In this document: in pieces, positions 18,416-26,428 of the stretch | Layout of the letters: each line of letters opens with the position of its first letter | How positions within the stretch are numbered: position 1 is the first letter of the stretch | Source of the DNA: an uncultured Prevotella sp. | GTDB taxonomy: Bacteria > Bacteroidota > Bacteroidia > Bacteroidales > Bacteroidaceae | Length of the DNA: 64,000 nt | NCBI GenBank assembly: GCA_946612625.1 | Contig: CAMOEW010000003.1 | Span: 1 to 64,000, forward strand | Direction of reading: 5' to 3' | The notes under the pieces: generated by a model | The model's database searches: none | What the model saw: only the letters and a program-made list of their open reading frames with translations | Told to the model about the DNA's origin: nothing | Position numbers and translations under genes: made by a program

Positions 18416-19822
18416 TTATTTGCGTTTCAACTTGAATGACCCCTCGATACTGCGCATCTCATCAGCAAACGATTGATCCACATGCAGCCGCTGCTCAATG
18501 GTCTTGCAGCTATGCACCACCGTACTGTGGTCACGGTTGCCTATAAGCTGCCCGATGCGCGATGCCGGCATGTTAGTATATTTCTGAGCGAGATACATAG
18601 ACACCTGGCGAACAAGCACATAGTCGTGCTTACGACTCTTACTGGCAAGCTGCTGCTGGGTTACGTTGTAGTGCCGGCATACTGTTCCGGTGATCTCCTC
18701 AACGGTGAGTGGCTTGTCGTCGATTTTCACGGCACGCTTGAGCACGCGCTCTGCAAGACGCATATCAATCTTGCTATTATACACAATACTATATGCCATC
18801 AGCGAATTGACAACACCCTCAAGGTCACGCACACTGCCATTCGCTGTCTCAGCAATAAACTGTATCACATCGGCCGGGATGTTCAGACCGTCGCGACGAC
18901 ACTTGTTCGTCAGAATATCGATACACAGCTGCACGTTCGGTTTCTCAAGCTCGGCAATAAGACCGCATGAGAATCGCGTCAGCAGACGGTCTTTCATCCC
19001 CTGCAAATCTACGGGAGGACGGTCGCTGGCAAGGATAATCTGCCTGCCATTGCGAAACAGATGATTGAAGATATGAAAGAACGTGTCGAGTGTTTTCGGT
19101 GAGTTGGACCATTCTTGTATGTCATCGACGATAAGCACATCGATAGTCTGGTAGAAGTTAATGAAGTCGTTGACAGTATTCTGGCGCACAGCGTCAGTAT
19201 ATTGCACTTGAAAGAGTCTTGCACTTACATACAACACCCGTAGTTGCGGATAGAGTTCCTTGCTGCGCACGCCGATGGCATTGATGAGATGGGTTTTTCC
19301 ACAACCTGAAGGTCCATAGATAAAGAATGGATTGAATGTCGATCGTCCCGGGTGCTCTGCCACCGACAGCCCGACCGTCCGCGGCAGCTTGTTTGAATCT
19401 CCCTCGATAAAGCTGTTGAAAGTCTTACGTGGATCGAGCTGTGGATTGAGTTGCTTCACGCTGTCGGTGACACGCGGTCCCTTGTTGCCGACGGCTGTTT
19501 CCTCAGGCATGTCGATAGTCGGTGGCTCGTCGCCAACCACCGTTGTAGAAAGGTTATGCTCCTTGTCGGTTACAATGCGGTATGTCAGTACCACATTCTC
19601 CCCAAAGCATCTTTGCAGCACCTTGCTCAGCAGTCCCACGTAGTATTGTTCCAAATACTCATACACATATTGACTTGGAACCTGAACCAGCAACGTATGA
19701 CTGTCTTCAGAATACTTCTCGAAGACAATCGGCAGGAACCATGTTTTATATTGCTGCTCTGTGACGTTCTCCCTTATCAATTTTAGGCAGTTGTCCCATA
19801 GCACCTTATGATTGTTTTGCAT
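18416..19822 (-). CDS. dnaA: Chromosomal replication initiator protein DnaA
   Basis: Walker A GPSGCGKTHL, VLIVDDIQ, C-terminal GNRDHSTVVHSCKTIEQ signature. Confidence 0.97.
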   Translation of the reverse strand: MQNNHKVLWDNCLKLIRENVTEQQYKTWFLPIVFEKYSEDSHTLLVQVPSQYVYEYLEQYYVGLLSKVLQRCFGENVVLTYRIVTDKEHNLSTTVVGDEPPTIDMPEETAVGNKGPRVTDSVKQLNPQLDPRKTFNSFIEGDSNKLPRTVGLSVAEHPGRSTFNPFFIYGPSGCGKTHLINAIGVRSKELYPQLRVLYVSARLFQVQYTDAVRQNTVNDFINFYQTIDVLIVDDIQEWSNSPKTLDTFFHIFNHLFRNGRQIILASDRPPVDLQGMKDRLLTRFSCGLIAELEKPNVQLCIDILTNKCRRDGLNIPADVIQFIAETANGSVRDLEGVVNSLMAYSIVYNSKIDMRLAERVLKRAVKIDDKPLTVEEITGTVCRHYNVTQQQLASKSRKHDYVLVRQVSMYLAQKYTNMPASRIGQLIGNRDHSTVVHSCKTIEQRLHVDQSFADEMRSIEGSFKLKRK

Positions 19823-22788: not shown

Positions 22789-25398
22789 TTACCCACAGCG
22801 GCTGGCGCCACAGTTCTTGCAAATAAGACATCCCTCCTGATATACAAGAGTCTCCTGTCCGCAGTTCGGGCAACGCTGTCCTGCTGCAACAGTACCGTCA
22901 ATCACATATTTCTTCAGCGCACGTTCCACACCGTTCTTCCACGTGTTGATGCTTTCGCTTTTCAGCTGCAGCGATCCCACGAGTTTTATCACGTGATCGA
23001 TAGGCATACGGTAGCGCAGCACACCGGAAATCAGCTTGGCATAGTTCCAGTATTCGGGGTTGAACTTCTCCGACAGTCCCTCCACGGTGGTCTTGTAGCC
23101 GCGTTTGTTCTCAAACTGGAAATCGTAGCGGTGGGTGCCGTCGTCGTTGGTGTTCTTGATAATCTTGCCTTTGGTGACAGTCTTGGGCAACACTATTCCT
23201 TCCTCGTCGTCCTGCAAACCAGTGAATATCTCGTATGGATAGCCGTTAAGCAGCCCTACGAACGCCACCCATTTTTCCTTATTGTTTTGGAAGCGCACCA
23301 CGTCGCACTCCAATTCCTTCGGACGCACCTCGGTCACTTGCGGATGGCAATGACAGTCTGTAGTTTTCTTGCTGTCGTCACCGGGCTGTATATCCACTTC
23401 ATGCAGTTTACCGTCGGCGGACTTAGTCTCTTCTTTCTTTTCCTTTTTGACGGCAATCATGACACCTGCCCGCGAGCCGTCACGATAGATAGTGCAGCCC
23501 TTGCATCCCGAGCGCCATGCTTCAACATACAGGCGATTGACAAGGTCTTCGTCAACATCATTTGGAAGATTGACTGTGACACTGATTGAATGGTCAACCC
23601 ACTTCTGGATTGCACCTTGCATTCTCACTTTCATAAGCCAGTCAACATCATTAGCAGTAGCCTTGTAATAAGGCGACTTTTCCACTATCGCGTCAATCTC
23701 CTCCTGAGTATAGTGCTTGGTAGTATCCAACCCGTTAACCTTCATCCATTCCATGAATTTCGGATGATATACGACGTATTCCTCGAAAGAGTCGCCCACC
23801 TCATCTACGAAATCCACATGCACTTCCTCGTCGTTTGGGTTCACCTTGCGACGGCGTTTATACACGGGCATGAAAACGGGTTCTATTCCGCTCGTTGTCT
23901 GAGTCAAGAGCGAAGTTGTTCCCGTGGGGGCAATGGTAAGGCAGGCAATGTTGCGACGTCCGTAGCTGACCATGTCTTCATACAGTTTAGCATCATGCTG
24001 ACGGAGGCGGTTGATAAATGGATTCTTCTCCTCGCGACTGGCATCATATATCTCGAAGGCGCCACGCTCACGGGCCATCTCAACGCTCGAACGGTAGGCT
24101 GAGAGCGCAAGCGTCTTATGTACCTCGACACTGAAATCAGTGGCAAACTGTGTGCCATAGCACAGCCCCATGGCAGCTATCATGTCGCCTTCGGCGGTGA
24201 TGCCCACTCCCGTGCGGCGGCCTTTCGAACTCTTGGCCTTGATTTTCTCCCACAGGTGATATTCGGCTCCTTTCACCTCCATCGATTGTGGGTCGCTCTC
24301 CACTTTTGCCATAATCTGGTCTATCTTCTCCAGTTCCAGATCGACGATGTCGTCCATGATACGCTGTGCCGCAGCCACATGCTTGCGGAACAAATCGTAG
24401 TCGAAATAGGCATCCTTTGTGAATGGATTTACCACATAGGAGTACAGATTGATGCTCAGCAGACGGCAGGAATCGTAGGGACAGAGAGGTATCTCACCAC
24501 ACGGATTGGTGCTCACCGTGCGGAATCCCAAGTCGGCATAGCAGTCGGGAATGCTCTCGCGCAGGATAGTGTCCCAGAACAGCACGCCGGGTTCTGCACT
24601 CTTCCATGCATTGTGTACAATCTTCTCCCAAAGAATCCTTGCATGGATTTCCTTTCTCACCATCGGTTCGCCGTCGCCGTCGATGGGGAACTGCTGCATG
24701 TATGTTTTGTCGTCGATAGCGGCACGCATGAACTCATCGTCGATTTTCACACTCACGTTGGCTCCGGTCACCTTTCCTTCGGTCATTTTGGCATCTATAA
24801 ACGCTTCTGAGTCGGGGTGCTTGATGCTGACAGAAAGCATCAGGGCACCACGGCGCCCATCCTGTGCCACTTCGCGCGTACTGTTACTATATCGCTCCAT
24901 AAACGGCACGAGGCCGGTCGATGTAAGTGCGGAATTCGCCACTGGAGTACCTTTCGGGCGGATATGGCTAAGGTCGTGTCCCACTCCGCCACGACGTTTC
25001 ATCAACTGAACCTGCTCCTCGTCGATGCGCATAATAGCACCATACGAGTCGGCGTCGCCGTCAAGACCAATGACAAAACAGTTACTCAGCGAGGCTACCT
25101 GATGGTTGTTGCCGATGCCTGTCATAGGACTGCCTGCGGGAATGATATACTTGAAATGATCGAGCAACGAGAAAATCTCATCTGCGCTCATCGGGTTTGG
25201 ATATTTCTGCTCGATACGTGCAATCTCTGCGGCAATGCGATGGTGCATTTCTTCCGGCGTCTTCTCGTATATATTGCCGAAACTGTCCTTCATTGCATAC
25301 TTGTTTACCCACACTCTCGCAGCGAGTTCATCGCCACCGAAATATTCCAACGAGGCTGCAAATGCCTCATCATAGCTGTATGTCTTATTATGTCCCAT
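22789..25398 (-). CDS. nrdJ: Adenosylcobalamin-dependent ribonucleoside-diphosphate reductase
   Basis: RRGGVGHDLSHIRPKG, NPCGEIPLCPYDSCRLLSINL, C-terminal CPNCGQETLVYQEGCLICKNCG zinc-ribbon-like tail. Confidence 0.93.
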   Translation of the reverse strand: MGHNKTYSYDEAFAASLEYFGGDELAARVWVNKYAMKDSFGNIYEKTPEEMHHRIAAEIARIEQKYPNPMSADEIFSLLDHFKYIIPAGSPMTGIGNNHQVASLSNCFVIGLDGDADSYGAIMRIDEEQVQLMKRRGGVGHDLSHIRPKGTPVANSALTSTGLVPFMERYSNSTREVAQDGRRGALMLSVSIKHPDSEAFIDAKMTEGKVTGANVSVKIDDEFMRAAIDDKTYMQQFPIDGDGEPMVRKEIHARILWEKIVHNAWKSAEPGVLFWDTILRESIPDCYADLGFRTVSTNPCGEIPLCPYDSCRLLSINLYSYVVNPFTKDAYFDYDLFRKHVAAAQRIMDDIVDLELEKIDQIMAKVESDPQSMEVKGAEYHLWEKIKAKSSKGRRTGVGITAEGDMIAAMGLCYGTQFATDFSVEVHKTLALSAYRSSVEMARERGAFEIYDASREEKNPFINRLRQHDAKLYEDMVSYGRRNIACLTIAPTGTTSLLTQTTSGIEPVFMPVYKRRRKVNPNDEEVHVDFVDEVGDSFEEYVVYHPKFMEWMKVNGLDTTKHYTQEEIDAIVEKSPYYKATANDVDWLMKVRMQGAIQKWVDHSISVTVNLPNDVDEDLVNRLYVEAWRSGCKGCTIYRDGSRAGVMIAVKKEKKEETKSADGKLHEVDIQPGDDSKKTTDCHCHPQVTEVRPKELECDVVRFQNNKEKWVAFVGLLNGYPYEIFTGLQDDEEGIVLPKTVTKGKIIKNTNDDGTHRYDFQFENKRGYKTTVEGLSEKFNPEYWNYAKLISGVLRYRMPIDHVIKLVGSLQLKSESINTWKNGVERALKKYVIDGTVAAGQRCPNCGQETLVYQEGCLICKNCGASRCG

Positions 25399-25489
25399 TG
25401 GTTGTTAGATAGAAATCTGCTGCAAAGTTACGACTTTTCCGGGAAATGGCAAAAGAAAACCGGGATTATTCTCTACAGTCTTGATTATA

Positions 25490-25597
25490 TAATCTCTTAG
25501 TACTAACGGATTATTTTGCAAATAAAAAAAATAATCCCTTGGCCTTAAGGGATTATTTTGTTCGGAACTTTTATAATCCCTTAATACTAAGGGATTA
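25490..25597. repeat. Three 24-bp palindromes at exact 42-bp period
   Basis: 25490-25513 TAATCTCTTAGTACTAACGGATTA; 25532-25555 TAATCCCTTGGCCTTAAGGGATTA; 25574-25597 TAATCCCTTAATACTAAGGGATTA; 18-bp spacers; possible half-site GGGATTA near 25462. Confidence 0.95.
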
Positions 25598-25690
25598 TAT
25601 TTTATCAGCATAAGACCAAAAAAATTCTCAGAAGAATGCATTATTCGAAAAAATGTGGTATATTTGCAAACTAAAAGCTATATAACGGAA

Positions 25691-26428
25691 ATGAAAAACT
25701 TAGATACGCGGCGTACAATCCGCAAATATTCAGACAGAGAAGTGAGCAGCGAACTGCTAAACCGTCTTATGCACGAGGCATCGCGAACGCAGACAATGGG
25801 CAACCTGCAACTGTACAGCGTCGTCGTCACGCGCTCGGCAGAAATGAAAGAGCGTCTGGCACCAGCCCATTTCAACCAGCCAATGATAAAAGAGGCCCCC
25901 GTGGTGCTCACAATATGTGCCGACTTCAACCGCACAAGTACATGGGCACGTTGCCGCAAGGCAGAACCTGGCTACAACAACTTTCTATCTTTCGTCAATG
26001 CATCCATCGACGCCCTGCTCTACACGCAGACGCTCTGCAATCTCTTCGACGAAGAAGGGCTTGGCTACTGCTACCTCGGCACCACCGTTTATATGCCACA
26101 GATGATTATCGAAACACTGCAGCTGCCGAAACTGGTGATGCCCGTAGCAACGCTCACCGTAGGATGGCCCGACGAAGAACCTGCACAGAGCGACCGACTG
26201 CCGTTGCAGTCGTTCGTGCACGAGGAGACCTATCGAGACTATACAGCCCAAGACATCGACACATACTATAAATATAAGGAAAGTATTGAAGAGAACCGCC
26301 GGTTCTGCGAAATAAACAACAAGGAGACACTGGCGCAGATTTTCACCGACATACGCTATACCAAGAAAGACAACGAAGCAATGTCGGAATCACTCATGGA
26401 GGTCCTGCGGAAACAGGCATTTATATAG
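25691..26428 (+). CDS. Nitroreductase family protein
   Basis: MKNLDTRRTIRKYSDREVSSELLNRLMHEASRTQTMGNLQLYSVVV N-terminal signature. Confidence 0.85.
   Translation: MKNLDTRRTIRKYSDREVSSELLNRLMHEASRTQTMGNLQLYSVVVTRSAEMKERLAPAHFNQPMIKEAPVVLTICADFNRTSTWARCRKAEPGYNNFLSFVNASIDALLYTQTLCNLFDEEGLGYCYLGTTVYMPQMIIETLQLPKLVMPVATLTVGWPDEEPAQSDRLPLQSFVHEETYRDYTAQDIDTYYKYKESIEENRRFCEINNKETLAQIFTDIRYTKKDNEAMSESLMEVLRKQAFI

Follow-up and report, generated by a model that had tools for sequence, protein, structure and literature searches.

What is the phased array of three palindromes between nrdJ and a nitroreductase gene: an operator that controls nrdJ, or one copy of a repeat that happens to lie there? The gap is divergent, with nrdJ on the minus strand (start at 25398) and the nitroreductase gene on the plus strand (start at 25691), the latter followed by the two dNK-family kinase genes. 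Our results suggest that the array is probably a small, mobile, REP-like repeat rather than a dedicated switch of the neighboring gene, and the genome-wide test corrects what was a tempting operator call.

The palindrome array beside nrdJ

Within the window (the whole 64,000-nucleotide stretch that was analyzed), the sequence-only reading had described TAATCCCTTA-N4-TAAGGGATTA as occurring three times at a 42-bp period, with differing spacers, about 90 bp upstream of nrdJ. This description is borne out in nearly every detail. The pattern is found three times at the places given and never in 100 dinucleotide-preserving shuffles; the starts (25490, 25532 and 25574) are exactly 42 bp apart; the spacer sequences differ as described; the perfect 10-bp arms of the third palindrome reach 12 bp when extended; the distance to nrdJ is 92 bp; and the neighboring genes are indeed those of NrdJ, a nitroreductase and two dNK-family kinases. 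The degenerate half-site proposed near 25462 holds only in part, as GGGATTA is present at 25462-25468 but is weak and 3 bp off the 42-bp register. The features of the gap are as follows.

25490..25513: palindrome unit 1, 24 bp with 2 mismatches, decayed; an extra unit outside the conserved doublet
25514..25531: spacer 1, 18 bp, differing in sequence from the conserved spacer
25532..25555: palindrome unit 2, 24 bp with 1 mismatch; first half of the doublet common to the other three loci
25556..25573: conserved spacer TTTTGTTCGGAACTTTTA, 18 bp, 14-16 of 18 nucleotides identical between loci
25574..25597: palindrome unit 3, 24 bp with 0 mismatches; second half of the doublet
25423-25430, minus strand: TAACTTTG, candidate nrdJ promoter box (TAnnTTTG), outside the array
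25659-25666, plus strand: TATATTTG, candidate nitroreductase promoter box (TAnnTTTG), outside the array

The two candidate boxes, called on the basis of TAnnTTTG, which we take to be the Bacteroidetes-type promoter box, both lie about 60 bp from the array edges. The ORF list of the window has no minus-strand ORF of at least 80 amino acids in the array. The dnaA gene is at 18416-19822 of the window, about 6 kb from the array, and the nrdJ-dnaA distance is also about 6 kb in three of the complete or near-complete relatives that were checked.

Copies in the host genome

The host assembly (2.18 Mb in 91 contigs, 83% complete) was searched as a whole with two patterns, one of 20 bases with at most 3 mismatches and one a 16-base core with at most 2. 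These searches identified nine copies of the palindrome family, spread over four loci, and a single 2-mismatch site unrelated to it. A profile search with the 48-bp unit, covering 2.15 of the 2.18 Mb, recovered only the same nine (the next match has E = 3.4), and among 178 non-overlapping palindromes with arms of at least 9 it is the only family to stand out, with eight members. The four loci are listed below.

Locus 1, window: triplet in the divergent gap between nrdJ and the nitroreductase gene
Locus 2, C5:685-750: co-directional gap, after the stop of a gene without a family match and before the start of an AraC-like gene
Locus 3, C5:34109-34174: convergent gap bounded by a ComEC-like gene and a sodium/solute symporter gene, whose stop codon the array touches
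Locus 4, C17:14733-14798: co-directional gap that follows a gene ending in a GC-rich hairpin of its own and precedes a 4-alpha-glucanotransferase gene

It is evident that the copies are never single: they occur as doublets or as the one triplet, always at the 42-bp period, at all four loci. The loci share no common gene theme, and comprise one divergent, one convergent and two co-directional gaps. The AraC-like gene has an HTH_18 match just under the cut-off. A TAnnTTTG box lies about 40-60 bp downstream of three of the four arrays. No copy is found at nrdD, the host's other RNR gene.

Homology between the loci is confined to a discrete 68-78 bp at 83-88% identity, and alignment with 200-bp flanks detected nothing beyond it. 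The 18-bp spacer is part of this homology; its observed total of matches between loci was never reached in 20,000 random draws, each of four AT-rich 18-mers. Because the homology takes in the spacer and stops at the edges, the arrays are taken to derive from copying, and because the sequence of the spacer is conserved and not only its length, common descent of the whole doublet is a simpler explanation than a phase-requiring protein. The doublet partners are exact reverse complements, loops included, at two loci, and show a 20-21/24 inverted match at the other two. The computed single-strand folds are strong (z of -7 to -10 for the four doublets); at three loci the doublet forms two hairpins, at C17 a single long one. 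The arms are better kept than the loops, with one compensated arm change (C5:727); both would also be expected under selection for function and count against the repeat reading.

Distribution outside the host

None of the other 398 genus genomes sampled has the exact core, and in 118 relatives, with up to 2 mismatches allowed, only scattered single sites of different sequence were found. Matches in G013 and G085 were dismissed, being single 2-mismatch palindromes of other sequence. A GTDB scan returned one single palindrome, in a Brocadiia genome, and Rfam only a microRNA match below threshold (27 bits, where the gathering score is 100); both were taken as chance. Viral, phage and plasmid collections gave no match. 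In relatives, neither the orthologous nrdJ gaps nor the orthologous symporter 3′ ends have the array, and since the symporter ends at the same place there, the element abuts the end of this protein and did not create it. Among the genomes sampled, the array is thus shown to be restricted to this species. One relative has tandem repeats around GACAAAAGAACATAGGGACATATAAATTTA in its nrdJ-nitroreductase gap (L035).

A dispersed repeat or a phased operator

The sequence-only reading had offered an operator and a dispersed, REP-like palindrome as its two possibilities and had named a search of the genome and relatives as the check between them. That search gave four loci not confined to nucleotide genes, one of them convergent and at a stop codon, which favors the REP-like possibility in a low-copy form; the array is neither unique nor syntenically conserved, the combination said to speak against a mobile repeat. 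We consider it likely that the array is one copy of a species-private, low-copy, REPIN/BIME-like extragenic doublet without a dedicated role at nrdJ. The unit would be two 24-bp palindromes with the conserved 18-bp spacer (a 66-bp core, 68-78 bp overall), whose dispersal to four intergenic places is observed and would reflect copying, and the nrdJ copy would have a third, decayed unit in addition to this doublet. When single-stranded, each palindrome is predicted to form a hairpin, or the partners to pair into one long hairpin. Such a shape would suit a single-strand nuclease or transposase that recognizes hairpins and acts in trans, the putative moving agent. We infer the mode of spread and also the absence of a dedicated role at nrdJ, where the flanking promoters would at most be affected incidentally.

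An unlikely alternative is that a species-specific regulator, dimeric or tetrameric, uses the arrays as a phased operator and controls a small regulon of nrdJ/nitroreductase, the AraC-like gene and 4-alpha-glucanotransferase, the convergent copy being a decoy. The 42-bp period fixed at all four loci, the similar distance of three arrays to downstream TAnnTTTG boxes and the small number of copies are consistent with such an operator. However, a phase-requiring protein fixes the spacing and not the spacer sequence, so that the conservation of the spacer, unneeded for phasing, counts against it, as do the array between convergent genes at a stop codon, the lack of an array at nrdD, the lack of a gene theme and the absence of the array from every relative, their nrdJ gaps included.

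A different palindrome at nrdD and nrdJ in relatives

The nrdJ gaps of relatives often hold a different palindrome, AAGTTTTCC-N5-GGAAAACTT, at one or two sites (L028-L056). Upstream of nrdD (class III RNR, TIGR02827 match) these sites also occur as a pair, with a distance of 43 bp in 26 of the 29 regions of relatives that were read (L094-L123), a count that allowed up to 5 mismatches of 18 and in which some single sites are weak. When scanned with up to 1 mismatch, positive genomes have 1-3 sites each, nearly all at nrdD or nrdJ, and no site was found in the 24 other genera sampled. This palindrome is shown to be conserved at nrdD and nrdJ across relatives. In the host, the best match is upstream of nrdD on contig C68 (L225:641; 20.7 bits, with a degraded partner), and the best in the nrdJ gap reaches 6.2 bits; in this genome the motif survives in weakened form at nrdD and is lacking at nrdJ.

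Neither the host genome nor any of the 17 genus mates searched gave an NrdR match above the cut-off; the two sub-threshold matches from the genus are at nrdD loci and most likely represent the ATP cone of nrdD. We infer that AAGTTTTCC-N5-GGAAAACTT is a better candidate for an RNR operator than the array, as the site of a putative RNR regulator. It is rather unlikely that a tagless REPIN-like doublet, which keeps to a 42-bp period, lacks its own RAYT and is early or late in its spread, replaced this motif and took over or abolished the control of nrdJ. The nrdD pair at a fixed 43 bp and the nrdJ sites, with NrdR not found, make the question of RNR control directly testable, and in our view outweigh the finding on the array.

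Terminators and chromosome organization

It is quite unlikely that the arrays serve as bidirectional transcription terminators or mRNA-stabilizing hairpins. At the window the stems, flanked by A-rich and T-rich sequences, are scored as terminators on either strand; of the other arrays, two lie just past a stop codon and one past the gene with its own hairpin. Yet the window array precedes both of its divergent neighbors, where there is nothing to terminate, no terminator is scored for the convergent copy, and terminators of unrelated genes do not have a spacer and a period in common. A chromosome-organization site of the parS or matS kind, suggested by the few palindromic copies and by the one near dnaA, is very improbable: such sites are widely conserved but the relatives lack the array, and the RNase Y gene, which is near one C5 copy, lies about 310-825 kb from dnaA in four relatives of 1-2 contigs, distances that do not support an idea based on chromosome position.

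Comparison with known systems

NrdR boxes are paired sites near an RNR gene, an integer number of helical turns apart, usually three with four tolerated (PMC12051234). The array resembles them in having paired sites at integer helical turns near an RNR gene, but not in the usual three-turn spacing. An operator of this type would have its sites at RNR genes and its regulator in the genome; unlike NrdR boxes, the array is also found at non-RNR genes and not at nrdD, and NrdR was not found.

The dispersed-doublet reading leads instead to REPs and REPINs. Bacteroidetes TnpA_REP subclass 2.6 is associated with atypical structures (PMC6006769), which the array resembles as untagged, atypical hairpins in Bacteroidetes; unlike those structures, it has no such gene found in the host assembly, and we regard the likeness as a lead only. 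The array palindrome shows no sequence relationship to the hairpins found at the RAYT loci of relatives. Near the Y1 transposase genes of two relatives we observed near-identical pairs of short hairpins, TGCATCTC/GAGATGCA (L023 1981-2190) and CCCAGGGC/GCCCTGGG (L025 1366-1950), which are possible REP pairs of those RAYTs.

Like the GTAG/CGTC-tagged REPs, some of which form dimers with conserved spacers, the array consists of species-specific 20-40 bp palindromes in dimers with a conserved spacer (PMC3733652). Unlike these, it is of low copy number and has neither a GTAG nor a CGTC tag at the palindrome foot, the flanks being A/T runs such as CAAAA and TTTTG (PMC3733652). A MITE would have terminal inverted repeats and a target-site duplication; no such duplication was seen by eye, the flanks share no homology, and near relatives offered no true empty site. 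REPINs are inverted doublets of extragenic palindromes that form hairpins (PMC3116915). In comparison with them, the array is present in four copies instead of hundreds (four loci in 2.15 Mb), carries no known REP tag, and is accompanied by no RAYT found, as the assembly (83% complete) has no match to the Y1 transposase family PF01797. Since high copy number, the GTAG/CGTC tag and the RAYT, all usual in REPs, are missing or unproved, we call the array REPIN-like and not a canonical REPIN. As in REPINs, its nine palindromes are dispersed over four intergenic loci, all in hairpin-capable doublets or the triplet of about 70 bp per doublet, with inverted partners at two of the four loci and homology within the element only (PMC3116915). 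In appearance, and probably in behavior, the array is thus like a REPIN, though not a canonical one, and it provides a compact case of a low-copy palindromic doublet without a known mover.
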